Shown: one piece after another, positions 36,643-62,425 of the stretch
Numbering within the stretch: the first letter of the stretch is position 1
Layout of the letters: each line of letters opens with the position of its first letter
NCBI RefSeq assembly: GCF_900142175.1
Contig: NZ_FQZX01000001.1
Location: 744,001 to 808,000 of the forward strand
Source of the DNA: Maribacter aquivivus
GTDB lineage: Bacteria; Bacteroidota; Bacteroidia; Flavobacteriales; Flavobacteriaceae
Direction: 5' to 3'
Length of the DNA: 64,000 bases
The notes under the pieces: generated by a model
What the model was told of the DNA's origin: nothing
What the model saw: the letters and a program-made list of their open reading frames with translations, nothing else
Database searches by the model: none
Program-made: the position numbers and the translations under genes

Positions 36643-37001
36643 TTTATCAATGATAAAGAATGGTTCAGAAGTATACTGCAAATTATAAAAAGTACGTATA
36701 AATACGTACTTTTTTATCGTAAATGTTCTGCGTAATATCGAGTGATCCGCAATTATTCTGCTTTAAGACTGAGAATGGATCAATAAATAGGAAATTGAGG
36801 TGTTGAAATGTTAAAGTGGAATGTTGATTGACGAAACTGTACTGAGAATACTTTTAGGCGGAATTGACTGTTTTAATTATTAACATTTCGGGAGTGAATT
36901 TTTCGAAAAATGCCATCATCGCAATAGAAATGTGGTAAATAGTTTAATTTTTCTTGGTAAAGCGTGTCATCGCTTGAACTAGTAATCACCTCTATTCTTT
37001 A
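36643..37001. other. leader of nasA and gene-free stretch
   Basis: 359 bases without a convincing gene. The right-hand part (36720-37001) shows no repeat, hairpin or small frame I would trust. The left part holds the nasA leader and its operator (36691-36710). Confidence 0.5.
36691..36710 (-). promoter_or_regulatory. operator dyad of nasA
   Basis: A perfect palindrome AGTACGTAT-AA-ATACGTACT, core TACGTA-TAAA-TACGTA at 36693-36708. Read in the direction of nasA the core is the same 16-mer as the nirB operator at 47662. It ends 48 bases upstream of the ATG at 36642. A TTTG (36679-36682, minus strand) near the expected -7 region lies just downstream. Confidence 0.75.
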
Positions 37002-37727
37002 TTAACTATCTAAATTATATTTTGGCTGTATTGAAGGTAAAACAGTCTTGAGCTTTTCGTAATAGGGTTTCCAATTGGCATAGTTTGGCTTTTCTAGTTT
37101 CAAATCCACCATTGTCTTTTTCGATTCATAATTTTTGTCATTACATAGTTTAGAAATTATCAAACCTCTAAAATTCGCATCTAGCGTACCTGCTAAAATC
37201 CCTCCATTTTTTCTATCATGCCAAAGAATGCCTTGACTTTCAAGTTCATCCATTCTTTTTAGAATGTTCAGCAAATACAAATAGTTGTTTAAAAATAGCT
37301 TACCGTCGCCATTGATGTAATTTTTTATTAGTTCAACACCTTGCTCTATTTCCTCATGAGTAGTTGCATTAAAACCAAAAGGACCTTTGGTAGTCCAATC
37401 ATAAACGGTAGGTAAATGATGACGTTTTTTCTCTTTAAAAAAATCCTGAAAATAATCTAGATCCAAAATATAATCTTCAACTTCATAATGAGTTATACCA
37501 AAACCAGAAAATGTAATGTCTCCCATATCAAAAAAATTAAAACCGATTTTGATGGCGATGCCATTTTTAAAATATATGAAGCAAGGATTACCACCTGTTT
37601 TGAATGATTTGTATCCTAAAGGTTGTAATACGGGTGATAGACTGCCGAACAATATTTTACGTTTTTCAGTATTATTCATAGAATTAATTTCTTGCGGTGT
37701 AAGTGTAATTTTGTTTTTTGTATCCAA
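37002..37727 (-). CDS. hypothetical protein
   Basis: 241 residues, soluble-looking, with no signal peptide or membrane helix. The N-terminal region (GSLSPVLQPLGYKSFKTGGNPCFIYFKNGIAIKIGF) suggests a mixed alpha/beta fold, and later YDWTTKGPFGFNATTHEEIE is distinctive, but I do not recognise a family. It lies between the response regulator and the nasA promoter. Nothing links it to nitrate use. Confidence 0.5.
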   Translation of the reverse strand: MDTKNKITLTPQEINSMNNTEKRKILFGSLSPVLQPLGYKSFKTGGNPCFIYFKNGIAIKIGFNFFDMGDITFSGFGITHYEVEDYILDLDYFQDFFKEKKRHHLPTVYDWTTKGPFGFNATTHEEIEQGVELIKNYINGDGKLFLNNYLYLLNILKRMDELESQGILWHDRKNGGILAGTLDANFRGLIISKLCNDKNYESKKTMVDLKLEKPNYANWKPYYEKLKTVLPSIQPKYNLDS

Positions 37728-37795
37728 ATTAAATCCTAAAGATATTTATCTCCGAAAATATTTTTTACCATTACAGCTAACAACCAAACAAATAT

Positions 37796-38467
37796 CTAAA
37801 TCAAATTATGCTTCTGTGCCTTTTTAGAAAGATCTATGAGATTTTTCACATCCATCTTACGCATTAAATTAAAACGATGCGTTTCAATTGTACGTTTACT
37901 GTTTTGTAGTTTTTCTGATATCTGTTGATTTGTTAAACCAGACAATACCAACTCTAATACCTTAAGCTCTTTGTTGGTTAAATCAAAAACATTGTCAGCG
38001 CTTTTACGTGGCTCTTCTTCTTTAACCACTTGTTTTTTAGCTCCCAATAAGTTATTTACCAAAACATTACTAATATCTCCACTAAAGTATTTACCGCCTT
38101 CTCTAACGGTATGTATTGCCTTAATAAATTCTGACTTGTCGGTGTCTTTTAATAGATACCCATTTGCGCCTGAACTAATAGATTTTAAAATATATTCTTC
38201 AGAATCATGCATGGAAAGTATAATGGTCTTCACCTCTGATTTACTTTTGGTAAGTTCAGCTACGGCATCAATACCGTTCATGACGGGCATCCTAATATCA
38301 ATGATTAAAAGATCAGGATTTACCTTGCCTACCAATTCAATAGCCTCTTTACCGTTCGATGCTTCACCGATCACTTCCAAATCAGATTCAGACTCCAATA
38401 AAGAACGGATTCCGTCCCTAACCAAAGCGTGATCATCTGCCAATACTATTCTTGTTATTTCACTCAA
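37796..38467 (-). CDS. NarL/FixJ-type response regulator
   Basis: 223 residues from a TTG start. The receiver domain (1-120) has D11-D12, the phosphoacceptor D57 (LLIIDIRMP) and the lysine in YLLKD. The C-terminal LuxR helix-turn-helix (LTNKELKVLELVLSGLTNQQISEK) binds DNA. It is close to the nitrate gene cluster and carries a near-perfect operator directly in front of its start (38472-38487). The only sensor kinase of the window is at 51290-53140, 13 kb away, and is its probable partner. Confidence 0.85.
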   Translation of the reverse strand: MSEITRIVLADDHALVRDGIRSLLESESDLEVIGEASNGKEAIELVGKVNPDLLIIDIRMPVMNGIDAVAELTKSKSEVKTIILSMHDSEEYILKSISSGANGYLLKDTDKSEFIKAIHTVREGGKYFSGDISNVLVNNLLGAKKQVVKEEEPRKSADNVFDLTNKELKVLELVLSGLTNQQISEKLQNSKRTIETHRFNLMRKMDVKNLIDLSKKAQKHNLI

Positions 38468-38471
38468 AATA

Positions 38472-38487
38472 TAGGTAATTATACGTA
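38472..38487 (-). promoter_or_regulatory. imperfect operator in front of the response regulator
   Basis: TAGGTA-ATTA-TACGTA, one mismatch from the perfect dyad. It ends four bases before the TTG start, so it would overlap the ribosome-binding region if the mRNA starts upstream. Confidence 0.5.
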
Positions 38488-38518
38488 CCGTGCTAAATTA
38501 CATATTTTAAAAACAACA

Positions 38519-38554
38519 ATACGGTCTACACAACCAATGCTGCATAGACCGTAT
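38519..38554 (-). terminator. probable terminator of the nrt operon
   Basis: A 10-base stem (ATACGGTCTA pairing with TAGACCGTAT) lies 24 bases after the porin stop codon on the minus strand, followed by a modest T-rich tract (TTGTTGTTTTT). Confidence 0.6.
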
Positions 38555-38578
38555 AACTAACTAAATTCTTGTAAAACT

Positions 38579-39862
38579 CTATTCTTTTTTGGTATTCAAA
38601 AACTGAGGCTTAATGGTCAACTGTACCCAAGCCCAGTTTTGGCTACTTGCTGCTAAATCTTCTGTAACCCCTTTTAGCTCATACATACCGTCTGCAGCGA
38701 ACATTTGAGAATATCCAACTGCTAACCCATAACCATTGAAAGCCTTTGAAAAGACCAAGTCAATTTCTGTACCCAATGATTTTTCTCCGCTTGGCAATTC
38801 TTGTTCTCCACTAAAATTTAAGACTTTAACCAGTAAGCTAGATTTCTTTCCTAAATCGAATTTTGCACTGGCGTGAATGTCAAATAGGCCTACAGAATTT
38901 GCATGGTTACCTACGTAGAAATAATCCATGAATCCGTTAAACTTATGATTGGTTCCGTATAGTGGAAAAAATGCCTCTGTTTTGTCTGTAGTATCCGCTT
39001 TGTTTCCGCTAATAACTTCTGTACCTAAACCTAAAGCTACCTTATCACTAGCCTTATACCCAAGCTCTAAACCTAGTAAATATGCACCGCCAACTTTTAC
39101 TTCGTTCTGTCTTTCTCCCGTTTGTAAAAATAGGTTGGCATTTGCACTAAAGCTTCCTGCTTTATATGCTAAATGTGTACCAATAGTTTGCAAGCTACTT
39201 ACTCCATCTGCAGCACCTTCAGTATCAAAATTTTGGAAACCATTATTCAATGCCAATATGCTACCGGAGAACTTATCCCATTGTTGCTTGGCGTATAGGT
39301 ATTGCATGGTTTTATATGTAAAAAAACCTGATGTATTATATGCTGTACCTACAGACTGAAACCCTGTTGGGTTATCAAAATCTTGACTAAAAGCAAGACC
39401 AACATCTAACATGAATTTATCTTTCTTATACTTTAAAAGTCCCGCATCATGGTTTCTACCTTGTTGCGCCCAATCCAATCCGCCAAAAATACGTTGGTCA
39501 TCATAAGCTATTGATTGTCTACCTAATTTTGTAGACCATCCTTTGCCTAAATTAATATTTGCCCATGCTTCAAATACTGCAAAAGAATCGTTCTGATCAT
39601 CTGGTAGAATTTGTCTGTTCTCGCCCCAAACCATTACATCTTGTATGCTTAAGTAAAACTGATACGCTTCTGATTCATATTTGGCATTTAACCGTGCACG
39701 GGTAGAGATTGCGAAACCAGCATCTGCAGCATCAGGAATTATGCTTCCGAAACCATTTCTATATTCTGTTCTTGGTCTAAACTGCCCGTCTAACGTAAAT
39801 TGGGCATAAATTGAATTTGCCGCCAGAAACAATAAGGTGATTAGTAAATATTGCTTTTTCAT
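38579..39862 (-). CDS. alginate-export-type outer membrane porin of the nitrate operon
   Basis: 427 residues: signal peptide (MKKQYLLITLLFLAANSIYAQ), then alternating beta strands ending in aromatic/hydrophobic pairs, a C-terminal strand (NWAWVQLTIKPQF), and the motif FTLDGQFRPRTEYRNGF that opens Alginate_export family barrels. It is the last gene of the nrtA-B-C-D operon (33 bases from the ATPase gene), so it is probably the outer-membrane entrance for nitrate or nitrite rather than for alginate. This substrate is inference from position. Confidence 0.8.
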   Translation of the reverse strand: MKKQYLLITLLFLAANSIYAQFTLDGQFRPRTEYRNGFGSIIPDAADAGFAISTRARLNAKYESEAYQFYLSIQDVMVWGENRQILPDDQNDSFAVFEAWANINLGKGWSTKLGRQSIAYDDQRIFGGLDWAQQGRNHDAGLLKYKKDKFMLDVGLAFSQDFDNPTGFQSVGTAYNTSGFFTYKTMQYLYAKQQWDKFSGSILALNNGFQNFDTEGAADGVSSLQTIGTHLAYKAGSFSANANLFLQTGERQNEVKVGGAYLLGLELGYKASDKVALGLGTEVISGNKADTTDKTEAFFPLYGTNHKFNGFMDYFYVGNHANSVGLFDIHASAKFDLGKKSSLLVKVLNFSGEQELPSGEKSLGTEIDLVFSKAFNGYGLAVGYSQMFAADGMYELKGVTEDLAASSQNWAWVQLTIKPQFLNTKKE

Positions 39863-39895
39863 AATTTTAATTTTAATAATTGAGTTAGTTAATGG

Positions 39896-40720
39896 TTAGT
39901 GTTCTAAAAAGTCTATTAGGTGTTTTCTATAGGTGTAATAATCATCGTTCTCTAATACGGATTTACGAGTACGCGGTCTTTCAAAATCAATGGAAAGGAT
40001 GTCTCCTATTTTTGCCTTTGGGCCACTGGTCATCATAATGACGCGATCTGCTAGAAAAATAGCTTCATCAACATCATGTGTAATCATAACCGCAGTAATT
40101 TTCTCCTTGTTCCAAATCTCTATAAGAATATCTTGTAATTCTCCCCTAGTCAGCGAGTCTAACATTCCAAAAGGTTCATCTAACAACAATACTTTTGGCT
40201 TAATAGCAAATGCTCTAGCAATACCCACACGTTGTTGCATACCTTGAGATAATTCTGATGCTTTTTTATGGAAGGCATTCTCTAGACCTACTTTGTGCAA
40301 ATAGTATTTTGCAATGTCTTGGCGTTGCCCTTTTGTTGCATGCGGAAAAACTTGATTAACCCCAAGCAATACATTCTGCAAAGCCGTCATCCAGGGCATT
40401 AAACTTGGAGATTGAAAAATAACTCCCCTATCTGGTCCAGGACCTTTTACAGGATTTCCTAAAACTGAAATATTACCTCCGGAAATTGGATTAAGACCTG
40501 CTATCATAGAAAGCATGGTTGTTTTACCACAACCTGAATGCCCTATAATCGTCACAAATTCTTCTTTTAATATCTGTAGATTTAAATCTTCTAGTACAAC
40601 ATAATCGCCCTTTGGCGTCGGGTAAACCTTTTTTAAATTAGAAAGATCTAACATTATATTGGATGGATAAACAATACCGTTTTCTGAATATGTCTGGTTA
40701 GATTGTTGTGTTGTGTTCAT
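39896..40720 (-). CDS. nrtD: nitrate ABC transporter, ATP-binding protein
   Basis: 274 residues. Walker [10 protein letters not shown], the signature [14 protein letters not shown], Walker [13 protein letters not shown] and the switch MITHDVDEA are all present. NrtD/TauB-type ATPases have one nucleotide-binding domain without the fused periplasmic-binding-like domain of cyanobacterial NrtC, and this one fits. It lies 11 bases after the companion ATPase gene, so the importer may use a heterodimer of two ATPases. Confidence 0.88.
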
Positions 40721-40731
40721 ATAATGTTTCT

Positions 40732-41571
40732 TTAGGCTACGAAGCTTTTTGGCGTAAGCTCTGGAAGTTTATATTCTACGTCAGAAACTGTTTTTCTCTC
40801 ATCACCTATATCCATTAAGTATTCGATGATGGAGTTTCTTGTTTTCTTGTACTCAGGATTATCGTTCATTGCCGTTTTATCCCTTGGTCTTTCAATATCA
40901 ATCTTAAACTCTGGACCCAAAGTGGCATTCGGACCTGGTTTCAATGGAATTATTCTATCTGCCATATAAATACCCTCATCAACATCGTTGGTAATAAGCA
41001 ATGCGGTACGTTTATCTTGACTCCAAATATTTAAGATTTCATCTTGTAAATTTCCTCTTGTCAAAGCATCTAATGCTCCTAAAGGTTCATCCATGATGAT
41101 CATTTCAGGATTCATGGCCAAAGCACGTGCTACCGCAACCCTTTGTCGCATTCCCCCTGATAATTCTTTAGGTCTCTTATTAATTGCCGGACTAAGATTT
41201 ACCATGCCTACGTAATTTTTCACTATTTCCATCAAGGCTTTTTTATTCTCCTTCGGAAAAGCTTCTTTTACCGCCATGTAAATATTTTGACCCACTGTCA
41301 ACCAAGGTAACAGCGAATAGTTTTGAAAAATCACACCACGCTCATGACTAGTATCGGTTACCGGAACTCCTTTAAAAAGAACCTCTCCGCTAGTTGGTTG
41401 CAATAGCCCGTTTATAAGATTTACTAAAGTGGTTTTTCCACTTCCGGTAAATCCTACAATAGCTACAAACTCACCTTCATCCATAGTCAGGTTGATGTTA
41501 GAAAGTACTTCTGTACTAACATCTCCCTCACCATAGGTTTTATAAATATTATTTAATTCTAAATATGCCAT
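40732..41571 (-). CDS. nrtC: nitrate ABC transporter, second ATP-binding protein
   Basis: 279 residues. Walker [10 protein letters not shown], signature [14 protein letters not shown], Walker [13 protein letters not shown] and a switch LITNDVDEG that replaces the usual His by Asn, so this subunit may hydrolyse ATP poorly and act as the regulatory half with NrtD. It lacks the C-terminal binding-protein domain of cyanobacterial NrtC, so the symbol is by position. It lies 19 bases after the permease gene. Confidence 0.82.
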
Positions 41572-41590
41572 GTTCTATCTTTTGAAAGCG

Positions 41591-42691
41591 TTATGCCATT
41601 TCATTTTTATTGAAAGAAACCATATTCTGTACAGCAAGCATCAGTCTATCTAACAAGAAACCAATGATACCAATGACGAACATTGCCACAATAATTTTTG
41701 AGTTAGAATCGTTAGCACCGTTCTGAAATTCTTCCCATACGAAAAGACCTAATCCCTGACTTTGTGCTAAAAGTTCAATGGCAATCAATACCATCCACGC
41801 CACAGATAGCGTAATACGAAGTCCCGTAAAAATTAACGGTAAAGAAGAAGGTAATATCACCTTGAATACTTTTTGAAAAGTGCCCAACTTTAATACTTTG
41901 GCAACATTGATATAATCTTTATCTACAGATGCAACACCCATTGCAGTGTTTACCAAGGTTGCCCACATGGCACAAAGACCTACACTAATAAATGATATTA
42001 CAAAGGCATTATCAGAATTGTCGCCGATATACAATGTTTTTACGATCATAAAAACCAACAGGTACCATACAACTGGCGATACTGGTTTAAAAATTTGAAT
42101 GAACCAGTTAAAGGCGCTTCGTAATGAAGGACTTAGTCCTATTACTATTCCAATAGGTACTGCGATAAACATTGCTAAAAGAAAACCGGCAAATACTGTT
42201 TTTATACTTGTTAAGACTATATCTACAAATGAGGCTCTACCTGTATATACAATTGGATCTTTACCTTGAGAAATCATTTTCTCATTAGTGACCGCCATTT
42301 TCTCTGCAAATGCCGCTTTATCTGCACGTATAACTTTATGATCCGCTATCAAAGATTGTAAGGATGCCCATACTTGAGATGGTGATGGCAAGGTATTGGG
42401 CTGGCAACTACTGTCGCCAGATTCAATACATGCGCGTTCAGCAACTGCAGCCGCTTCTCCCTGTTCTTGCAGTGCTTTTTCCACTCTGTAATTTGCCTCT
42501 TTATTGTACAGTGCCTTAGAACCCATCTGCCATAAACCAATGAATAATAGTATGGATAGAAGCGTTATACCAGTATTTTTTAAGGATTTTATAATGCCAT
42601 CTTTTTTAATACTTGGCGTAAGTTTCAAAAGCATTTGCTTCAAACTAGAAGACAAACTATTTTCGTTTTTTAAGACCATTTCTTGTTCCAT
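41591..42691 (-). CDS. nrtB: nitrate ABC transporter permease
   Basis: 366 residues. An N-terminal anchor (about 40-60) is followed by a soluble insert of about 100 residues (with IESGDSSC) and then five to six helices of the BPD_transp_1 type. The coupling motif is LPSSLPLIFTGLRITLSVAW (the EAA-like loop that contacts the ATPase). The long insert makes it larger than standard 280-residue NrtB proteins; it is characteristic of Bacteroidota homologues I recall, and may help docking of the substrate-binding lipoprotein. Confidence 0.88.
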   Translation of the reverse strand: MEQEMVLKNENSLSSSLKQMLLKLTPSIKKDGIIKSLKNTGITLLSILLFIGLWQMGSKALYNKEANYRVEKALQEQGEAAAVAERACIESGDSSCQPNTLPSPSQVWASLQSLIADHKVIRADKAAFAEKMAVTNEKMISQGKDPIVYTGRASFVDIVLTSIKTVFAGFLLAMFIAVPIGIVIGLSPSLRSAFNWFIQIFKPVSPVVWYLLVFMIVKTLYIGDNSDNAFVISFISVGLCAMWATLVNTAMGVASVDKDYINVAKVLKLGTFQKVFKVILPSSLPLIFTGLRITLSVAWMVLIAIELLAQSQGLGLFVWEEFQNGANDSNSKIIVAMFVIGIIGFLLDRLMLAVQNMVSFNKNEMA

Positions 42692-42724
42692 ACTATTTAA
42701 TTTAAGGTCAATGAATTACTTTAA

Positions 42725-44113
42725 TTATTTCTTGTCTTTGTTTCCGATCGAGAAACTGTTGATATACCCAATTGGATCCTTGGCATCATAGCTAGTACCA
42801 TCTATAAAGTCTGATGTCGCTGCTTTGTAACCATCAGTATCTGGAACATCTGCTGCTGGTATTTGACCTTCTGCAACCAAAAGATCTGCGGCTTTTTTCC
42901 ATATATCCGGTCTGTAGATATCTTTAATCGTACTTGCGTACCAATCAGAAGATTTTGATTCAGGAATTTGACCCCATCTACGCATTTGTGTTAAGAACCA
43001 TATTCCGTCAGAATAGAAAGGATATGTTGCGTTGTACTTATAGAATACATTGAAATCAGGCATTTCACGCTTGTCTCCTTTTTCGAATTCAAATGTTCCA
43101 GTCATAGAGTTTGCCAATACTTCTTTTGGTGCACCCACATATTGAGACATGGAAAGTATTTCTACAGCCTCTGCTCTATTAGAAGGTTCATCTAACCATT
43201 TACCAGCTCTAATTAATGCTTTTGTGACCGCTATAGCAGTGTTAGGATTTTGCTCTACAAACTGCTTTGTCATTACAAATACTTTCTCAGGATTGTTCTT
43301 CCAAATATCATAGTTGGTTGTTACCGGTACACCAATACCTTTAAATACCGCTTGTTGGTTCCAAGGCTCACCTACACAGTACCCATAAATAGTACCTGAC
43401 TCTAATGTTGCTGGCATTTGTGGCGGTGGCGTTACAGAAAGTAAAACCTCTGCATCTATCTGCCCTTGCACATTATCTGCTGTATACATACCTGGATGAA
43501 TACCCGCTGCAGCTAACCAATAACGTAATTCGTAATTGTGAGTAGATACTGGAAAAACCATTCCCATTTTAAATGGTTTGCCTTCATTTTTATACGAAGT
43601 AATTACCGGCTTTAAAGCATCTGCTTTAATTGGGTGAATAGGCTTACCATCTGAATCTGCAGGTACATTTGGCTTCATTTTAGACCAAACATCATTAGAA
43701 ACCGTAATTCCGTTACCATTTAAATCCATTGAAAATGGAGTAACCAATTCTGCTTGTCTACCAAAACCTGCTCCTGCAGCAATTGGCTGACCTGCCAACA
43801 TATGTGATCCGTCTAATTGACCATCTATTACACGGTCTAAAACATTTTTCCAGTTAGATTGTGCTTCTACCGAAACAAAAAGTCCTTCTTCTTCAAAAAA
43901 GCCTTTTTCTTTTGCAATGGCCAAAGGCGCCATATCTGTAAGTTTTATAAATCCAAAAGTTAATTGTGGCTTTTCAATGTCTAACATTTTAGTTTTTGAG
44001 GCTACAGCTTCTTCTGAAACCGTTTCGGCTTTCTTGCTTTTTGTATCTCCACAGGCCGTAAATACCAAGGCGAGGGAAAGGGTTAAAACAGACGAGGTAA
44101 AAATGTTTTTCAT
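42725..44113 (-). CDS. nrtA: nitrate/nitrite-binding lipoprotein of ABC transporter
   Basis: 462 residues of the NrtA/CmpA family. The signal ends in a lipobox (LALVFTACG, cysteine at residue 21), tethering it to the membrane. Family blocks are visible: [26 protein letters not shown] near the start, SHMLAGQP-like ligand contacts, and [13 protein letters not shown] with the conserved W. It binds nitrate for the NrtBCD importer. It is the first gene of the five-gene operon, whose promoter carries several TACGTA half sites. Confidence 0.9.
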
Positions 44114-44134
44114 AATCTTAATTATTTAATGTTC

Positions 44135-44150
44135 TACGTATTAATACTTA
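44135..44150 (-). promoter_or_regulatory. imperfect operator of nrtA, proximal
   Basis: TACGTA-TTAA-TACTTA, one mismatch from the perfect dyad, 21 bases upstream of the nrtA start codon. Confidence 0.5.
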
Positions 44151-44154
44151 TTTC

Positions 44155-44170
44155 TACAAATATATACGTA
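44155..44170 (-). promoter_or_regulatory. imperfect operator and -7-like element of nrtA
   Basis: TACAAA-TATA-TACGTA. On the minus strand the overlapping TATATTTG (44157-44164) matches the Bacteroidota -7 consensus TAnnTTTG exactly, so promoter and operator coincide. A further TACGTG half site is at 44184. Confidence 0.5.
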
Positions 44171-44363
44171 ACAGCATTTCCCATACGTGATATAAGCGAT
44201 GTTTAAACCTCTTTTTACCACATATTAAAACACAGTAATTAGCCATATTAGAAACTGCCAAAAAACATGTTTTACAAACAAACCATTGTTTTACAATAGT
44301 TTACATACATTAAAATTAACGGTGTTAACTACGTAAATTAGGGAATGATAGAAATACGTACTA

Positions 44364-45122
44364 TTAGCTGTCTAGGTAGAAATTGTGCTCTGATATTTCT
44401 TTTTTAAGCAATTCAATATTAGAAATACCAACTCTTTTACCTTTGGTAAGTATCAAGCCTTCTTTTTTAAGAATAGAGAACATTCTTATGACCTGTTCTT
44501 CTGTGGTACCTGCATAATCTGCATACTCACGTCTACTTAATAAAAGGGAAGAAAATTCGTTAGTTTGTCCAAACTTACGATCGATATATAATAAGGTGTC
44601 TATGACACGTTCTCTAACCGTCATTTGAGATAACGATTTTACTCGGATTTCACTACGATTAAGTTCATTCGCATAAAACAACATAAAATCATATGTAAGA
44701 CTGGGTATTTCCCTTAAGGTTTCTTGAAGTAATTCTTTTGAAAAATAACATAAGGTACAATCTACCAAAGCAATGGCACTTATGGGGTACGTCTCTTCTG
44801 TACCAAAACCTCTATGCCCAATAATTTCACCCGGCACCGCAAAACGAACAATTTGTTCTTTACCATGAAGACCGGTTCTCAATACTTTGACCTTGCCACT
44901 TAGCAAAAAAAATAGCCCGGTAACAGAAGCACCTTCCATGATAAACTGCTGCCCTTTTTTACATTTGATTTCTTTTCTAGCCTGAACTAATTTTTCAATA
45001 TTAGAAGAATGAATATTCTTTTGAATTAGGCATTTCTTATTGGTACAAATATTACAGGCACTATCAAGTAGTTCAGAATTATTGGAAGAAAACTTTGATA
45101 TGTTTGTTGTGCCTGTACGCAT
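44364..45122 (-). CDS. FNR-like Crp/Fnr regulator of nitrate assimilation
   Basis: 252 residues. Three cysteines near the start, C23, C26 and C31 (C-x2-C-x4-C), and C125 (TLCYF, at the position of E. coli FNR Cys122) are the four ligands expected for an oxygen- or NO-sensitive 4Fe-4S cluster. A cyclic-nucleotide-like beta barrel (about 45-145), a dimer helix and a C-terminal helix-turn-helix follow. In the recognition helix E209 and R213 are kept but S212 is Ile (FNR: E-x-x-S-R), suggesting a changed target. It is 12 bases downstream of narK, so both share the promoter with the perfect operator at 46611. Confidence 0.85.
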   Translation of the reverse strand: MRTGTTNISKFSSNNSELLDSACNICTNKKCLIQKNIHSSNIEKLVQARKEIKCKKGQQFIMEGASVTGLFFLLSGKVKVLRTGLHGKEQIVRFAVPGEIIGHRGFGTEETYPISAIALVDCTLCYFSKELLQETLREIPSLTYDFMLFYANELNRSEIRVKSLSQMTVRERVIDTLLYIDRKFGQTNEFSSLLLSRREYADYAGTTEEQVIRMFSILKKEGLILTKGKRVGISNIELLKKEISEHNFYLDS

Positions 45123-45134
45123 AGATAATCTTAT

Positions 45135-46562
45135 TTATATAGTACTTGGAGATAAATCAATTACAGGCTTGTTAACTGTATTCAATTCTTCTTTCACTTG
45201 TTTTTCATCTTCTGTAGAGAATTTAATAGCAAGTGTTGTTAAGGCCGTAACGACTACAAAACCACCAATTATAAAGTAACCACTTGACACTGCACCCGAG
45301 GCAGCAGCAGCTTGAGCAGCTTTCATAGCCTCTTCTCCTAAATTTGCGTTCGAAGCCAATGCATTGGTTTCTGCCAAGGATGATTTTGATTTTAGCAATA
45401 GTGCAGCTAAAAACGCACCTACATTACCACCAGCACCAACAATACCTGAGATAGAACCAATTGCTTTTTTATTTATGAAGGGAACTACTGAGAAAGTTGC
45501 TCCTTCTGCCATTTGAACCGTTATACTAAAAGCTATTAAGAATATAATGCCCATTGCAAAACTTGTGGTCAGTGAAAAGACCGACAGCATCGCACCTTCA
45601 AGTGCCAGAATTACGGTTAAGAAAAGTACTCTACCACGTAAACCCTTTAATCTACCGAAACGGTCACCAAAAAACCCGCCTAAGGTTCTTGCAAATATGT
45701 TCATTAATGCAAAAGAAAGTACCAAGTTACCAGCCGTAGACCTCGTAAGTCCGAATGTGTTCTGCAGGTAATCATCCATTGTACCATACACGGTAAGTTC
45801 CATTCCAAAAGAGGCGGCATAAACAATAAAAAGAATCCAAACACGGTAATCTTTCAATACACTTACAAATGACTCTTCATCTTTTTTAAGCTTCGGCATT
45901 TTGCCAGCTTCTTTCAATTCTTTAAAATTACCTTCTGAGGTATCTTGTGTGAAAAAATAATACACAACACCCATTAGCATGGCAATTACACCAGCTATGA
46001 TCATAGAGTAACGCCAAGCAATTTCATCTGCAACTCCAAAACTGACCACTGCAGCAGCTATTAAAGGCATACCAAGACGGTTGGCACCACCACCTAAATT
46101 ACCCCATCCTGCTGAGGTAGCATTGGCAGTGCCAACAATATTGGGGGCAAACATAATAGAAGTATGAAACTGAGTAATTACAAATGATGCACCTATAAAA
46201 CCTATAAACAATCTACATATTAAGAATTGCATTGGTGTTTGAACAAAGCCAATAAGTATTACAGGTATAGCACCTAAAATCAACAAATAGGTATAACATA
46301 ACCTAGGACCATATTTATCACATAATTTTCCAATTAACAATCTAGCGAAAACAGTACCGGTTACTGCCAGTATAATCGAATTCCACTTTTGATCAGGAGT
46401 CAAGCCTAGATCTTTTACCACATCTGGCATAAACGGTACAATTCCAAACCATGCAAAGAAGCATATAAAAAACGCTATTGATGTAATCCAAAAAGTACGT
46501 ATTGGCATACTTTTTAAATCAGTTAACTTTAAAGTGGTCGATTTTTTGGATTGATTTTCCAT
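45135..46562 (-). CDS. narK: NarK-type nitrate/nitrite MFS transporter
   Basis: 475 residues from the methionine at 46562 (46574 adds four). About 12 membrane helices of the MFS. The nitrate signatures are recognisable: GWGNLGGGANRLGMPLI in helix 5 and a second glycine-rich stretch SISGIVGAGGNVGAFLAALL in helix 11, with basic residues in helices 2 and 8. It takes up nitrate or exchanges nitrate for nitrite. Having both this permease and the Nrt ABC system suggests uptake at different nitrate levels. The FNR-like gene follows. Confidence 0.9.
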   Translation of the reverse strand: MENQSKKSTTLKLTDLKSMPIRTFWITSIAFFICFFAWFGIVPFMPDVVKDLGLTPDQKWNSIILAVTGTVFARLLIGKLCDKYGPRLCYTYLLILGAIPVILIGFVQTPMQFLICRLFIGFIGASFVITQFHTSIMFAPNIVGTANATSAGWGNLGGGANRLGMPLIAAAVVSFGVADEIAWRYSMIIAGVIAMLMGVVYYFFTQDTSEGNFKELKEAGKMPKLKKDEESFVSVLKDYRVWILFIVYAASFGMELTVYGTMDDYLQNTFGLTRSTAGNLVLSFALMNIFARTLGGFFGDRFGRLKGLRGRVLFLTVILALEGAMLSVFSLTTSFAMGIIFLIAFSITVQMAEGATFSVVPFINKKAIGSISGIVGAGGNVGAFLAALLLKSKSSLAETNALASNANLGEEAMKAAQAAAASGAVSSGYFIIGGFVVVTALTTLAIKFSTEDEKQVKEELNTVNKPVIDLSPSTI

Positions 46563-46592
46563 GATATAGTTCAATTCGTTTATAAATCAGTA

Positions 46593-46600
46593 CAAACCTA
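46593..46600 (-). promoter_or_regulatory. -7 promoter element of narK
   Basis: On the minus strand, TAGGTTTG matches TAnnTTTG exactly, 10 bases downstream of the operator dyad (46611-46626). The operator then occupies the usual -33 region. Confidence 0.55.
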
Positions 46601-46610
46601 ATCTATTTTA

Positions 46611-46626
46611 TACGTAATTATACGTA
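46611..46626 (-). promoter_or_regulatory. operator dyad of narK-fnr
   Basis: TACGTA-ATTA-TACGTA, perfect half sites. It ends 36 to 48 bases upstream of the start codon, depending on which methionine is used. A further TACGTA is at 46651-46656. Confidence 0.75.
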
Positions 46627-46809
46627 GTTTTGTATGTTTTCTATATTTACTACGTATAATTATATAATATCCATAATTGGAAGCTGATAATTATTGAATT
46701 CGCAATTTTAAAAAGACAAAAATTAATAATTTATAATTTTTATTTTGAAAGCGGGCTTGTTTTCAAAGGACACTAAGTAGGTATCAGTGTTTCTAACTAA
46801 AACATTACA

Positions 46810-47601
46810 CTAAATAGCTCCATGTAATATACGCTGCACTTCCTCTTCAAAGAAAGAAGGATGATCTGCTACAACATCACCTATTACTATAATTCCATGC
46901 ATCGTTGTATCTATATTAGGTGTATGATGATGAATACTATCTAAGGTAGCTACAACGCAGCTTTCATTTTCTGTAGTTCCATTTTGTATTACGGCTATAG
47001 GCGTCATTCTACCCCTATATTTACTAACCTCATCTACAATTTCACTAAGTTTTCTTATACCCATTAATATAACCATTGTGGTAGATGATTTTGCTGCATA
47101 TTGCAAATCTTGTGAAAATGCACCATCTTTTTTAGTGGCAGTCATTACCCAAAAACTACTGCTTACCCCTCTTTTGGTCATAGGTATTCCTTGACTAGAT
47201 GGTACGGCAATTGAACTTGAAATACCTGGTATTATACTTACAGGAATACCAAAGGATTCTACATACTCTATCTCTTCATTTGCCCTACCAAAAACAAATG
47301 GATCACCGCCTTTTAATCTCACCACATGTCCGTATTCGAAGGCATATTTGACTATCAATTCATTAATCTCATCTTGAGTATGAGAGTGTTTTCCGCATCT
47401 TTTACCCGTATATATCTTAGGAATATCAGTACGTAGTTCAGATAACAGTTCATCACTAATTAATGCATCGTATAATATAACATCTGCCTCATTCAAAACT
47501 CTCAAACCCCTTACTGTTATTAGGTCTTTTGCTCCAGGTCCTGCTCCAACCAAACTTACTTTTGCCGTTTTCTCTAATTCCATCTTCATAGTATTTAGCA
47601 T
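46810..47601 (-). CDS. cobA: uroporphyrinogen-III C-methyltransferase
   Basis: 263 residues; the start may also be the methionine at 47583. SUMT uses S-adenosyl-methionine twice to make precorrin-2, the first step of sirohaem synthesis. Motifs: KVSLVGAGPGAKDLITVRG near the start, LRLKGGDPFVFGR-like (VRLKGGDPFVFGR), and IPGISSSIAVPS. It shares a 104-base intergenic region with divergent nirB, where a perfect operator lies, so sirohaem supply is probably co-regulated with the enzyme that needs it. Confidence 0.93.
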   Translation of the reverse strand: MLNTMKMELEKTAKVSLVGAGPGAKDLITVRGLRVLNEADVILYDALISDELLSELRTDIPKIYTGKRCGKHSHTQDEINELIVKYAFEYGHVVRLKGGDPFVFGRANEEIEYVESFGIPVSIIPGISSSIAVPSSQGIPMTKRGVSSSFWVMTATKKDGAFSQDLQYAAKSSTTMVILMGIRKLSEIVDEVSKYRGRMTPIAVIQNGTTENESCVVATLDSIHHHTPNIDTTMHGIIVIGDVVADHPSFFEEEVQRILHGAI

Positions 47602-47628
47602 TATTAATTATCGAATCTTCAACAAGAA

Positions 47629-47634
47629 TACGTA
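47629..47634 (-). promoter_or_regulatory. single TACGTA half site upstream of cobA
   Basis: A lone TACGTA, 27 bases upstream of the cobA start in the shared cobA/nirB region. Confidence 0.3.
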
Positions 47635-47661
47635 ATTATTTTCATAAAATTATCAATTATA

Positions 47662-47677
47662 TACGTATTTATACGTA
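47662..47677 (+). promoter_or_regulatory. operator dyad of nirB (and probably cobA)
   Basis: TACGTA-TTTA-TACGTA, perfect half sites, ending 28 bases before the nirB ATG. In the direction of transcription the 16-mer is identical to that of nasA. Confidence 0.75.
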
Positions 47678-50675: not shown

Positions 50676-51266
50676 ATGGCGACGACAGATAAATTACTGG
50701 TAGCATTTCAACATTTTGACGAAGCCAATACCCAAGACCCAAATACCGAAATGTTCGAGGGAACTACCTACCCAAAAGAAGTACTCTACGGTATTCGAAT
50801 GACCGAGCGCCTAAACGAATTTGACCCAACTGCATCTGAAGCTTTACGCTTAACTGCAAGGTGTCAACATATCTGCAGATGGGAAATACCGAGAGAGTCT
50901 TATGAAATGAACCGCGAAGGGTATTTGAGATGGCGACAAGAATTAAAGAAGTTTCATGCAAAGAAAGCTGCTTCTATTTTAGAAGATGTGGGTTATGATG
51001 ATGAAACCATTGACAATGTCAAATTTCTTTTAGAGAAAAAACAGCTAAAGAAAAACGAAGAAACCCAATCTTTAGAAGATGTTATCTGTTTGGTTTTTTT
51101 AGAATTCTATTTTGAACCTTTTGCGCACAAACATCCGGAGGATAAAACAATAGATATCCTTCAGAAAACATGGAGAAAAATGTCTATTAAAGGACAAGAA
51201 GCAGCTTTAAAATTACCGCTTTCTAAATTCTCCTTAAATTTAATTACCAAGGCACTTCACGCCTAA
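50676..51266 (+). CDS. DUF4202 protein
   Basis: 196 residues, all helical. The family label DUF4202 fits the start (LVAFQHFDEANTQDPN) and the central pattern ARCQHICRWEIPRESYEM.. with a conserved WR and FHAKKAASIL, whose histidines recall an HD-like metal site. It is found beside assimilatory nitrite reductases in Bacteroidota and some cyanobacteria, so a role in nitrogen assimilation is likely, but none is established. Confidence 0.8.
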   Translation: MATTDKLLVAFQHFDEANTQDPNTEMFEGTTYPKEVLYGIRMTERLNEFDPTASEALRLTARCQHICRWEIPRESYEMNREGYLRWRQELKKFHAKKAASILEDVGYDDETIDNVKFLLEKKQLKKNEETQSLEDVICLVFLEFYFEPFAHKHPEDKTIDILQKTWRKMSIKGQEAALKLPLSKFSLNLITKALHA

Positions 51267-51289: not shown

Positions 51290-53140
51290 ATGGGCAATAA
51301 CGAGCAAATTATACCATTGGATACGGCTACGTTTATACGTATTCGTAAATGGTATTTGTTAGCATTGGCAGCTATTGCACTTACCGTTATTATTGCCCAA
51401 GTACTTATTCAATTGCACCTAAAAGCACAATCTGGCGATTCTGAACTTATAAACATAGCCGGTAGACAACGTGCCTTTAGTCAAAAATTGACCAAAGAGA
51501 CCTTACTTTTAAAAGACCTAAGTAATCCGGAAGATAAAAAGATGGTGCTCTCTGAAATAGAGAAGACTCTTGAAATTTGGAAAGTATCTCACGTAGGGCT
51601 TCATTTGGGCGCAGCCTCTTTTAACCTGCCTTACGAAGATGATCCTAAGGTAAAGGCTTTATTTAAAAAGCTTGATCCGCACCATTCGGAAATGGTTGGT
51701 GCTTTAGAGCATATACTTGTAACACAACAACAGGATATTAATGCATCTGTACAACAAAATGATCTGGATGCCTTGCTGAACAATGAGCGTCAGTTTTTAA
51801 GTATTATGGATCAAATTGTAAATGAGTATGATGCCCGCAGTAATGAACAGCTACAAAAACTAAAACGAAAAGAGTATTGGTTATTGGCATTCTCTTTGGC
51901 AATTCTTCTTCTAGAAATCTTTGTTATTTTCCGACCGTTATCCATTCAAATTAAAAATACCATTGGTCATTTAATGGGTAAAGATGAAGAATCAAAAGAT
52001 CAACTAGTAAAGATTCAAAGCTTATATGATGAGAAAGAACGCTCGCTCAAAGAATTGCAAGAACTAAATTTTGTTATTGATAATGCTGCTCTTTTTGCCA
52101 GTATTCGTAAAGATGGTTCCATTGTTTTTATAAGCAAGAAGTTTTTAGATTTATTAGGTCATGAGACCACACCAGTAAACAAGCCTATTTCAGAAATTCT
52201 GACCATTGAAGAAGGTCAACAATCTTATCTCAAAGAAGTACTGAAAATTAATAGGAAAAATGTGATGCGTACAGAAGAGCTCCAGGTGGTAACCACCAAA
52301 GGAACTACAATTTGGTTAGATATGTCAATAGTACCCATGCATCAATCTACCTTAGAGCAAGATATTTTAATTCTGTGTTCAGATATCACCGAACGAAAAG
52401 AAAATCAGCTTAAAGTACAAGAGTTGACTAAGCAGAATTTCGAAGAACGCATGCAACAAAAAAAGGTGCAGGCAAGTCAAATTGTTGAAGGTCAAGAAGA
52501 AGAACGCAAGCGTATCGCCAAAGATATTCATGATGGTATTGGACAAATGTTGACCGCACTTAAATTCAATATTGAATCTATTGATATTGAAAACAAGGAT
52601 AAGACGAGAGAGAAAATTGCCTATTTAAAATCACTGACATCAGACTTAATAAAAGGTGTTAGAACAGCGACTTTTAACCTTACTCCGCCAGAGTTAAGCG
52701 ACCATGGTATATTCCCTGCAATTCATAAAATGACCACTGAGCTTTCTAAATTAACCGGTAAGACGGTTCTGTTTAAAAATAAGACCGATGCTAATATTAG
52801 GTTCGACTCGCTAGCTGAAACCAATATTTATCGTGTTACCCAAGAAGCGGTCAACAATGCCATAAAATATGCAGAAGCAAATTATATTTTAGTTACCTTA
52901 AATTACTCTTATCCTATTTTAAGTGTAGTTATAGATGATGATGGCAAAGGTTTTGATGATTCTATTTTAGGAAAATTACCAAAAAATAATAGTGAAGGCG
53001 GTATGGGTCTGTTTTTTATGAAAGAACGTATAGACTATATTAACGGTCGTTTATTCATAAACTCTGAACTTGGACAAGGTACACGTGTTACCATCAATTA
53101 TAAAACAGAAGAAAACAAAATTGCAAATGGAACGGAATGA
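51290..53140 (+). CDS. NarX-like sensor histidine kinase
   Basis: 616 residues. Two membrane helices (about 18-38 and 196-215) flank a periplasmic domain whose start, LINIAGRQRAFSQKLTKE (about 50-67), resembles the nitrate-binding P-box of NarX/NarQ and PilJ-type sensors. A PAS domain follows (about 255-370), then HisKA_3 with the phosphorylated His in KDIHDGIGQML, and an HATPase_c domain (NNAIKYAEAN, DDGKGFDDS, GGMGLFFMKER). It probably senses nitrate or nitrite and phosphorylates the NarL-type regulator at 37796. It is inside the nir operon, which is unusual. Confidence 0.85.
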   Translation: MGNNEQIIPLDTATFIRIRKWYLLALAAIALTVIIAQVLIQLHLKAQSGDSELINIAGRQRAFSQKLTKETLLLKDLSNPEDKKMVLSEIEKTLEIWKVSHVGLHLGAASFNLPYEDDPKVKALFKKLDPHHSEMVGALEHILVTQQQDINASVQQNDLDALLNNERQFLSIMDQIVNEYDARSNEQLQKLKRKEYWLLAFSLAILLLEIFVIFRPLSIQIKNTIGHLMGKDEESKDQLVKIQSLYDEKERSLKELQELNFVIDNAALFASIRKDGSIVFISKKFLDLLGHETTPVNKPISEILTIEEGQQSYLKEVLKINRKNVMRTEELQVVTTKGTTIWLDMSIVPMHQSTLEQDILILCSDITERKENQLKVQELTKQNFEERMQQKKVQASQIVEGQEEERKRIAKDIHDGIGQMLTALKFNIESIDIENKDKTREKIAYLKSLTSDLIKGVRTATFNLTPPELSDHGIFPAIHKMTTELSKLTGKTVLFKNKTDANIRFDSLAETNIYRVTQEAVNNAIKYAEANYILVTLNYSYPILSVVIDDDGKGFDDSILGKLPKNNSEGGMGLFFMKERIDYINGRLFINSELGQGTRVTINYKTEENKIANGTE

Positions 53141-59809: not shown

Positions 59810-62425
59810 CTACTCTGCAGCTCCTTCAAAAATGGAGTTGAAAATAAGCTTGTACGTACCTCTTGGTTGTGCTCTAAATTGAGGTCTGAAGGCAAACAAT
59901 ACTACAGCGCCTTTGCCATATTTCGCTTTTACCATAGCTGGCTTTTTAGCGATATACTTTTTCTCACCCATTGCCCAGCCGCTCATTAACAAATCTTTTT
60001 CTGCATAGTTAGCAATAACCTCAACTTCTGGCATTGGAGCATCTTTGATATCTTCTGTACCACCTTCTCCTTTTTTACTTTGCTTATCTATAACAAAAGC
60101 ACGACTCTTATTAAAAGAAACCGCTACCGTGTCTTGCATACCAAATGCTAACGGATGCGTAGTATCTATTCCAGCTTTAATCAATGAACCAGGTATAAAG
60201 AACTCTGTACTCTCCGTACCTTCTGTTGCATCTTTTAATGGCAAACCAAATTGCTCTATGACATAGTTACTAGCTTCATCGAACGCTATTAACGTTCCGC
60301 CATTTTTTACATAATTGCTTAGTGCTACCGACCCTTCCAAACCTATACCACCAGTAAATTTCTCTGGCATTTTCAAAGGCGAATTACCGTGTAAAATTGA
60401 TTTTGGTCGTTGCGACGGTAGTATCAATACATCATACTGCGACAAATCTTTTGTTTGAATATCGGTATCATGAAGAGTATCAGTCTCGAACGAATATTCG
60501 TCCATTATAAAACGCGTCCATCCTTCATCCATATTAGAAACCCATGATTTGTACAACCCTACTTTTGGCGCATGTACTTTAGTTAGTGCTACTTTTGGTT
60601 CTGCGGATAATCCTATTACTTCTAAACCATATTCAGAAGCTAAATCTTCAACAGAAGCACTACCACCAGAAACGATATAAGCACCTGCCGGATATGTTGT
60701 TTTTCCAGATTTAAAGGATGCTTTGGTTTTATATGCCGTACCACCTGCTTTTAATACTTTGTTGGTTACAATTACAGATGCGTTACTGTTGGCACTTAAC
60801 AAATACCCGTAGGAAGCATTCCCTCTTACATCACCTTCATAATACGATGCTTCGTCTAATACCTTCTCTGTAGCTACCTCAAAAGGTTTTGCAATTTTAT
60901 CTACAGTGATCCCCATTTGCATAGGTAATGTCCAACCTGCTAAGTCATACGGAGTATCTGGTGGGCCACCTGGATATTGAAAACGTGATGGGTAATTCTG
61001 TTTCTCTAACAAATCCATCAAGTACGGTCTAAACGCTTGTGCAGTATAAATTACATAAGCACCTTTCTCATATTTCTTTCCGTTGACCTCAAAACTTTTG
61101 GTAGTTTTCTCAATTTCAATTCCGCCTTTAAGCAACACATTTACCAAGTTTACAGACTCAAAAGCATCCCATTGATCTTTACCGATTACGTATGCAAACG
61201 GACCTTCTTCTTTCGACTTCTCAATTGCCGAAGCTCCCATTTTATAAATGTTATATAAATAGTTACTCTTACGATCTGCTGCTAAATCTAAAGTTGCCCA
61301 TGTAGCGGTCAACATATAATCTACAGCATCACGAAAATGAGACTCACCACCTTTCCATGGATCTGGATACATGATATCTGTACCATCGGTTGGGGTACCG
61401 CCAGCAACGGTTTTAGGCAATTTCTCTGGATCATAGAATCTTGGTGTTGGCGATGTATGTCCCGTTTCCGTTAAAATTCCGATCATGTTATGGTAGTAAG
61501 GCACAGTACGCCCGCCACCGTTCCAGAACATGGTATAGAAATTATCGGCAATAGCACCCGGCATATTCTCTAACGAAAATCTTTTGGTCATTGCAGAACC
61601 TAATTCACTGACACCCGCAGTAATAGCTGGGTGAATTCTTGGGTTAACTGGATCTGCATATGGTGGTAAAGATATTTTTGTCCAAGATGGAGAAGATTGG
61701 TGGTGGTTATACACAATCTGTGGATACCACTCATTGTACAAAATCTTAGTCACATTATACGTCTCTGGCATGGTGTTCATAAACCAATCTCGGTTGTTAT
61801 CATGACCCATGTAGTAGTGATATAAAATTGGGGGTCTTGATGTTTCATAAGCGGTACCTAAATTCTTTTTGTACCAATCTACAACTATGTCCAACCCATC
61901 AGGATTCATTACAGGCATCAATATCGTAATGACATTCTCCCTAATTTTTTTCATTTCTGTAGTTTCAGAAGTGGTCAAAGTATATGCCAATTCAGAGGTC
62001 ATTTGACCATGAGCCAACTCCGTAGAGTGCATACCACCATCAATCCAAACCACAGCTTTACCTTCTTCAGATAGCTTCATAGCCTCATCATTTGAAACCT
62101 GAACACGAGCTAGTTTAGTACTAATGTCTTTCCACTTGTCTAAATCTTTTAGGTTCTCCTCACTAGAAATAAATAAGATGTACATTTTTCTACCGAGCAC
62201 GGTGGTTCCTATCTCCACTTTTTTAACACGTTCAGAAGAAGCGTCTAGTTTAGAAAGGTAGTCTTCAATTTGGCTGTAATCTGCCAATTTATAGTCGGCA
62301 CCAACTTTAAAACCGTAGACATCTTCTGGAGAAGGTACAGTTTGCGCCATCGTCACAGATATGCACGAAATAGCAAGTACAAGGGTCAGCAATGCCGCCT
62401 TGCACCAAGAGTTTTTTGTAGTCAT
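59810..62425 (-). CDS. secreted M14-family zinc carboxypeptidase-like protein
   Basis: 871 residues with a signal peptide (LLTLVLAISCISVTMAQ). Residues about 45-350 are an M14 domain: the zinc pair is in GGMHSTELAHGQ (H-x-x-E) and a later His occurs in a VYNHHQSSPSW region. A long C-terminal part (about 430-870) is beta-rich and includes GATase1-like strands (YDVLILPSQRP, NGGTLIAFDEAS). It probably degrades peptides or modified peptides outside the cytoplasm. It is the only gene of its unit. Confidence 0.8.
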   Translation of the reverse strand: MTTKNSWCKAALLTLVLAISCISVTMAQTVPSPEDVYGFKVGADYKLADYSQIEDYLSKLDASSERVKKVEIGTTVLGRKMYILFISSEENLKDLDKWKDISTKLARVQVSNDEAMKLSEEGKAVVWIDGGMHSTELAHGQMTSELAYTLTTSETTEMKKIRENVITILMPVMNPDGLDIVVDWYKKNLGTAYETSRPPILYHYYMGHDNNRDWFMNTMPETYNVTKILYNEWYPQIVYNHHQSSPSWTKISLPPYADPVNPRIHPAITAGVSELGSAMTKRFSLENMPGAIADNFYTMFWNGGGRTVPYYHNMIGILTETGHTSPTPRFYDPEKLPKTVAGGTPTDGTDIMYPDPWKGGESHFRDAVDYMLTATWATLDLAADRKSNYLYNIYKMGASAIEKSKEEGPFAYVIGKDQWDAFESVNLVNVLLKGGIEIEKTTKSFEVNGKKYEKGAYVIYTAQAFRPYLMDLLEKQNYPSRFQYPGGPPDTPYDLAGWTLPMQMGITVDKIAKPFEVATEKVLDEASYYEGDVRGNASYGYLLSANSNASVIVTNKVLKAGGTAYKTKASFKSGKTTYPAGAYIVSGGSASVEDLASEYGLEVIGLSAEPKVALTKVHAPKVGLYKSWVSNMDEGWTRFIMDEYSFETDTLHDTDIQTKDLSQYDVLILPSQRPKSILHGNSPLKMPEKFTGGIGLEGSVALSNYVKNGGTLIAFDEASNYVIEQFGLPLKDATEGTESTEFFIPGSLIKAGIDTTHPLAFGMQDTVAVSFNKSRAFVIDKQSKKGEGGTEDIKDAPMPEVEVIANYAEKDLLMSGWAMGEKKYIAKKPAMVKAKYGKGAVVLFAFRPQFRAQPRGTYKLIFNSIFEGAAE

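Follow-up and report, generated by a model that had tools for sequence, protein, structure and literature searches.

A conserved TACGTA-N4-TACGTA dyad as candidate operator of a NarL/FixJ-type two-component system in the nitrate assimilation cluster of Flavobacteriaceae

A stretch of 64,000 nucleotides from the genome of Maribacter aquivivus (assembly GCF_900142175.1, contig NZ_FQZX01000001.1, positions 744,001–808,000; henceforth the window) carries a nitrate assimilation cluster whose promoters share the dyad TACGTA-N4-TACGTA. Because the dyad recurs in the corresponding promoters of relatives and is specific for a spacer of four bases, the data argue that it is a real, conserved operator dedicated to this cluster. 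We propose that, with high probability, it serves as operator for the two-component system that the cluster itself encodes and is bound by the NarL/FixJ-type response regulator encoded at 37796–38467 on the minus strand.

Perfect copies are present in the nasA promoter (36693–36708, minus strand), in the narK-fnr promoter (46611–46626, minus strand) and between the divergent cobA and nirB genes (47662–47677, plus strand). A preliminary description of this DNA had placed all three correctly, and its statement that the nasA and nirB copies are identical in the direction of transcription was confirmed, both reading TACGTATTTATACGTA. The imperfect copies that it reported were also recovered: one with a single mismatch immediately before the start of the response regulator gene (38472–38487, minus strand), one with a single mismatch upstream of nrtA (TAAGTATTAATACGTA; 44135–44150, minus strand) and, 20 bases away from the latter, a weak one with two mismatches (44155–44170, minus strand). 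Two additional copies with two mismatches, absent from that description, were found at 46651–46666 (minus strand; weak, lying 40 bases farther upstream than the narK dyad) and at 61187–61202. When up to two mismatches are allowed, the window contains eight dyads compared with 1.84 (standard deviation 1.36) expected, and none of 100 shuffled sequences reached eight. As shuffling by itself yields 1.84 matches, a lone two-mismatch copy such as those at 44155, 46651 and 61187 is not significant.

A pattern search of the whole 4.58-Mb genome returned exactly three perfect dyads, all within the nitrate cluster. About 0.53 copies are expected from base composition alone, and the reversed pattern gave one. 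For the degenerate form TAMGTA-N4-TACKTA the genome has five matches, a total that is not high, given eight for its reversed control. Four of the five (the three perfect copies and the nrtA copy) lie in the cluster and the fifth within a large open reading frame; the unusual feature is therefore the clustering, not the total.

Conservation was evaluated in 80 named loci (1.59 Mb in total), the best 80 of 451 NarK relatives found in one scan. Many of these are close relatives of one another (Maribacter, Arenibacter, Aquimarina), and among the named relatives fetched Maribacter stanieri is closest (NarK 99% identical). Gene matches were dropped if they showed less than 40% identity, started beyond residue 40 or covered less than 12%, as were upstream stretches shorter than 100 bases; dyads with at most one mismatch were counted from 400 bases upstream to 60 bases inside the gene. 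The dyad was found upstream of nasA in 53 of 59 relatives, of narK in 64 of 79, of nrtA in 32 of 39, of nirB in 65 of 70 and of cobA in 49 of 49, the latter two genes mostly sharing one spacer. This supports a shared operator that is kept across the Flavobacteriaceae. No such dyad was found upstream of fnr in 30 relatives, fnr following narK. In promoter alignments, in which identical promoters were entered once, the dyad is nearly invariant amid variable sequence, a contrast to which the picking of sites at no more than one mismatch contributes.

Outside the promoters of the 80 loci the dyad is far sparser. With the same filters on gene matches, cluster promoters (150-base windows, 48.6 kb) hold 111 perfect and 148 one-mismatch copies, 259 in all, whereas the 1546 kb outside them in the same loci hold 7 and 28, respectively, or 35. 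Perfect TACGTA pairs are found 118 times at a spacer of 4 versus 0 to 20 times at each other spacer between 0 and 20, and other palindromic hexamers form at most five pairs each at spacer 4. A further set of 40 stretches, in which the regulator is mostly more distant (47–64% identical), was screened with 250-base windows, leaving out matches below 40%. At a limit of one mismatch, the dyad precedes nirB in 11/18, nrtA in 6/11, cobA in 2/4, fnr in 2/12 and the response regulator gene in 20/39 cases. With at most two mismatches, the counts are 13/35 for nasA, 20/21 for narK, 17/18 for nirB, 9/11 for nrtA, 2/4 for cobA, 5/12 for fnr and 27/39 for the response regulator.

Since TACGTA is its own reverse complement, perfect copies cannot separate a direct from an inverted repeat. 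Diverged sites in the further stretches, however, often read TAAGTA-N4-TACTTA, a mirror-image change by which the repeat is inverted, and a direct repeat of TACGTA was rejected accordingly. The consensus is TAMGTAT-N2-ATACKTA, the spacer ends being mostly T and A; in this count, half-site positions 3, 7 and 8 were free while positions 1, 2, 4, 5 and 6 were fixed by the search pattern. Consistent with a NarL-type operator of inverted heptamers, TACGTAT-N2-ATACGTA occurs 63 times in the 80 loci, compared with 0 to 8 times at the other spacings between 0 and 12. NarL sites are described as inverted heptamers in a 7-2-7 layout in passages of PMC4549865. The NarL heptamer TACYYMT itself was not found, position 4 being G instead of C or T in every copy in the window's promoters; an engineered NarL 7-2-7 site, TACCCCTAAAGGGGTA, has 10 of 16 bases in common with the nasA site. 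For FixJ, passages of PMC4999443 give a motif obtained by systematic evolution of ligands by exponential enrichment, GTAMGTAG, and the fixK site TAAGTAATTTCCCTTA. The latter agrees with TAMGTA-N4-TACKTA at 10 of 12 positions, a score equalled by 130 of 400,000 random AT-rich 16-mers.

The proposed reader combines a receiver (PF00072, E 6.7e-29) with a GerE/LuxR-type helix-turn-helix domain (PF00196, E 1.1e-16), the domain pair of the NarL/FixJ family. The phosphorylation residues D6, D7, D52, S80 and K102 (alignment numbering) are invariant in 16 orthologue sequences. Its best sequence match in the PDB is NarL (1a04, E 2.7e-34). The structural model, a receiver plus a four-helix domain, has a predicted local distance difference test score of 83; LiaR, ChrA and VraR come first among its fold matches and NarL takes ranks 18 and 19, and for the helix-turn-helix domain alone EsrB and SsrB are nearest, with FixJ fourth. 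Because the protein scores below the curated cut-offs for both NarL (148.1 bits versus 250) and NarP (138.3 versus 343), we file it as a member of the NarL/FixJ family and not as NarL.

In a draw of 299 genomes of the family, the regulator, called at a minimum of 49% identity and E 1e-45 or better, is present in 77, exactly those genomes in which NasA occurs with at least 66% identity; seven further genomes with NasA-like matches at 32–38% only were excluded from the NasA count. It was also found (at least 56% identity) in all 14 genomes searched, including 12 in which the fetched stretch had none. The rows shown all have the recognition helix RT-x-E-[T/V, once A]-HRF, and RTIETHRFNLM of the window regulator aligns with RTVEVHRANVM of FixJ. 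Helix and site were compared over 120 loci minus those lacking a readable helix or site; regulator matches below 48% were excluded from the co-occurrence comparison and those below 47% from the tree. With helices of the ETHR type (47 genomes), half-site position 3 is C in 323 of 410 half-sites, while with those of the EVHR type (also 47 genomes), to which the FixJ helix belongs, it is A in 142 of 194. The EAHR helix of one genome goes with A in 5 of 6 half-sites.

The likely partner of this regulator is a membrane-bound sensor histidine kinase (51290–53140, plus strand) with PilJ, PAS, HisKA_3 and HATPase domains, in which Pfam reported neither HAMP nor GAF. This architecture matches the narHK layout of nitrate-sensing kinases of Bacteroidetes, which, according to passages of PMC8199190, have no HAMP or GAF-like domains and in some cases bear PAS; the genes are labelled narHK/narRR there. 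The window kinase carries the P-box INIAGRQRAFS, with its G-x-x-R. Of 63 loci that have a kinase match, 61 show INxAGxxR; in the two exceptions, L072 and L104, the kinase match is partial. Searched against the PDB, the N-terminal part matched only a chemotaxis transducer domain, 6gcv (E 0.12), which we take to be McpN. McpN binds nitrate through its PilJ-type domain, but the corresponding domain of the PilJ receptor did not bind it (passages of PMC6381276), so that nitrate sensing by this kinase is likely rather than certain. A DUF4202 protein is encoded at 50676–51266, between nirD and the kinase gene, an arrangement that many of the 80 loci share.

On the basis of the conserved sites, the co-occurrence of regulator and NasA and the protein families, we propose a scheme in which binding, the nitrate signal and the sign of regulation are predicted. 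The PilJ/P-box domain would let the kinase sense nitrate (or nitrite), and the kinase would control phosphorylation of the response regulator at the conserved receiver aspartate. The LuxR-type domains would then bind as a dimer to the 7-2-7 inverted repeat in the promoters of nasA, narK-fnr, nrtABCD, cobA and nirB, and often in that of the regulator itself, which would make these genes one dedicated nitrate regulon.

The preliminary description had assigned the dyad to the FNR type, that is, to a 5-4-5 site that would be read under low oxygen by the FNR-like protein encoded at 44364–45122 (minus strand; cyclic nucleotide-binding and HTH_Crp_2 domains in Pfam). ACGTA-N4-TACGT does fit a 5-4-5 layout, the gene sits in the cluster behind narK, and its orthologue (E 1e-60 or better) was found in 56 of the 299 family genomes, all among the 77 with NasA. 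The FNR type is nevertheless not supported: the same bases can equally be read as 7-2-7, and an orthologue (at least 60% identity) is present in only 10 of 38 genomes searched, the best match in the other 28 being at most 34% identical. All 28 still retain a dyad with no more than one mismatch in nasA, narK, nirB, cobA or nrtA promoters (18 of them a perfect one), as do nine of the ten genomes with the orthologue (five perfect); gene matches were filtered as above, and upstream stretches under 100 bases were again dropped. The protein is dispensable for the site. Moreover, the FNR operator consensus, TTGAT-N4-ATCAA, shares 2 of 12 positions with that of the dyad after padding. We therefore consider recognition by the FNR-like protein very unlikely, and favour the NarL/FixJ-type regulator because of its co-occurrence with NasA and the FixJ site comparison. 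Some other family-wide regulator, either a different Crp/Fnr protein or another NarL-type one, is an improbable reader as well. Distant Crp/Fnr homologues (about 30% identity) are common, and receiver and NarL-type proteins are numerous in each genome. A search for HTH_Crp_2 in six genomes, on the other hand, gave a single match in L045 and none in L065 (a metagenome-assembled genome of 3.6 Mb, possibly incomplete), and both keep dyads. This alternative is only weakened, as the proteins compared for co-occurrence with NasA were the cluster regulator and the FNR-like protein.

The position of the dyad within promoters was assessed relative to the flavobacterial −7 box, TAnnTTTG at −12 to −5 according to passages of PMC9723704. 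With identical promoters of the 80 loci counted once, the dyad has an exact box nearby in 18/49 for nasA, 60/71 for narK, 34/67 for nirB, 23/46 for cobA, 35/35 for nrtA and 23/38 for the regulator gene, versus 35/359 shuffled promoters. The last TA of the dyad is also the TA of a box (TAnnTTTG or TAnnATTG) in 64/65 nirB, 34/68 narK, 16/47 nasA, 11/35 nrtA, 1/18 regulator and 0/46 cobA promoters. Judged from boxes and not from mapped starts, such sharing puts the dyad centre near −18; by the same measure the centre falls near +10 in 24/35 nrtA promoters, near −30 in 21 narK promoters and near −51 at cobA, where TAnnTTTG lies 39.5 bases from it in 23/46 promoters. Given these several distances, a sigma-factor promoter element was rejected as an explanation of the dyad. 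In the window, exact boxes are present at narK (TAGGTTTG, following the dyad, with 18.5 bases between the TA of the box and the centre of the dyad) and at nrtA (TATATTTG, upstream of the one-mismatch dyad and overlapped by the weak copy at 44155). The final TA of the cobA/nirB dyad starts a nirB −7-like box one base off, TAATATTG, and no exact box was found at the window's nasA and cobA dyads.

NarL activates from −44.5, −67.5 and −77.5 at derivatives of the ogt promoter (passages of PMC7419079) and may either activate or repress, frdA being repressed from a site at −4/+6 (passages of PMC4549865). By this yardstick nirB and nrtA look repressed, while cobA is possibly activated, its upstream dyad being compatible with activation. 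The overlap of the dyad with the −7 box or the start region at nirB, at some narK promoters and at nrtA favours a block of RNA polymerase there.

A number of observations weigh against the regulator encoded at 37796–38467 as the reader in a simple nitrate switch. The dyad precedes its own gene in only 28 of 63 relatives, and in the 40 further stretches recovery at no more than one mismatch is weak for nasA (10/35) and narK (6/21). The engineered NarL site agrees with the dyad consensus at only 6 of 12 positions, and the genome of L034 alone has 39 receiver or NarL-type matches, some of which could read the dyad. The switch between helix type and base is a single event on the tree; covariation was therefore rejected as independent proof, and the pairing counts as one observation and FixJ as a second. 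Repressor-like positions fit poorly with simple nitrate induction, a nitrate-bound repressor being odd for assimilation, so that either the kinase would work in the opposite sense or binding would not amount to simple blocking. Additionally, 12 of 80 genomes that lack the regulator contain the exact word TACGTAT-N2-ATACGTA, 17 copies in all (reversed control 1). At three of eight such loci read (L139, L140 and L141), it lies just behind the 3′ end of a gene for a 29%-identical NarL-type regulator with helix EKHR. Since they stand behind a gene end and not in a promoter, we read these three copies as terminators.

In genomes with the regulator, the exact word was counted 37 times in 24 of 76 (reversed control 1), and 19 of 24 loci fetched from this set have nitrate-cluster genes beside it. 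The promoter test gives a stronger contrast than this whole-genome count, since copies of the word are also found at gene ends: four of the eight loci read from the regulator-less set (L138 and L139–L141) have it between convergent genes. A terminator role is likely for some copies outside the cluster. That the palindrome acts as a transcription terminator or RNA hairpin within the cluster is extremely improbable, and was rejected, given its placement in the spacer from which cobA and nirB diverge, kept in the relatives as counted above, and the near-constant sharing of its last TA with the nirB −7-like box. NirB was not found at E 1e-150 in the 80 genomes without the regulator, an empty result that carries no weight alone. 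Four genomes of Flavobacteriaceae (G114, G170, G165 and G292) contain 16 to 41 copies of TACGTA-N4-TACGTA each; only G292 has the regulator. Five of seven places listed for G114 are TACGTAGTTCTACGTA or its complement, which looks like another dispersed palindrome.

Further features were observed around the dyads. A second conserved block, A-rich and TGATAAAA-like, lies 10–20 bases upstream of the dyad before nirB (47640–47661), and another, TTAYSA, before nasA (36709–36735; at −15 in 21 of 48 promoters); perhaps these are sites of another regulator. In narK promoters of L045, L068, L081 and others, three TACGTA-like words with a 10-base period form two overlapping dyads. The block comprising nrtABCD and fnr (39896–45122) is present or absent among close relatives, for example in Zobellia and Maribacter.

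The proposed system resembles NarX-NarL of Escherichia coli in pairing a PilJ-type nitrate-sensor kinase with a NarL-type regulator, and its operator resembles NarL sites in consisting of inverted heptamers that start with TA and lie two bases apart. It differs in the heptamer, TAMGTAT instead of TACYYMT, in a kinase with PAS and no HAMP or GAF reported, and in a regulon that is assimilatory. FixJ responds to oxygen through FixL. The recognition helix is of the EVHR/ETHR type, as in FixJ of Sinorhizobium meliloti, whose 16-base site TAAGTA-N4-CCCTTA (passages of PMC4999443) is asymmetric, unlike the near-perfect palindrome in nitrate genes described here. A parallel in kinase type and gene neighbourhood is narHK/narRR of Bacteroidetes, where kinases free of HAMP and GAF-like domains, some of them with PAS, are drawn near nitrate genes together with a response regulator; an operator is proposed here, whereas the passages of PMC8199190 consulted contain no DNA site or regulon for narRR. 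Among the titles and abstract openings listed from the open-licence literature, no description of this operator and no published regulator site for flavobacterial nitrate use was found, and a search of open-licence literature for NarL contact residues returned nothing.

Marine waters are rich in flavobacteria, whose use of nitrate bears on the nitrogen cycle. With a defined 16-base operator and a named kinase-regulator pair, the control of this cluster becomes a question open to experiment, and the dyad offers a bioinformatic marker of the regulon. It also provides a candidate DNA site for the narRR regulators of PMC8199190. A broader picture, which we hold tentatively and judge somewhat more apt to fail than to hold, is that the nitrate two-component system of the Flavobacteriaceae controls the whole assimilation cluster and almost nothing else, with one end of the operator built into the −7 box, so that a single phosphorylated regulator would block or permit transcription depending on position. 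If true, a nitrate switch that descends from the NarL/FixJ family and uses a FixJ-like word would here serve assimilation.

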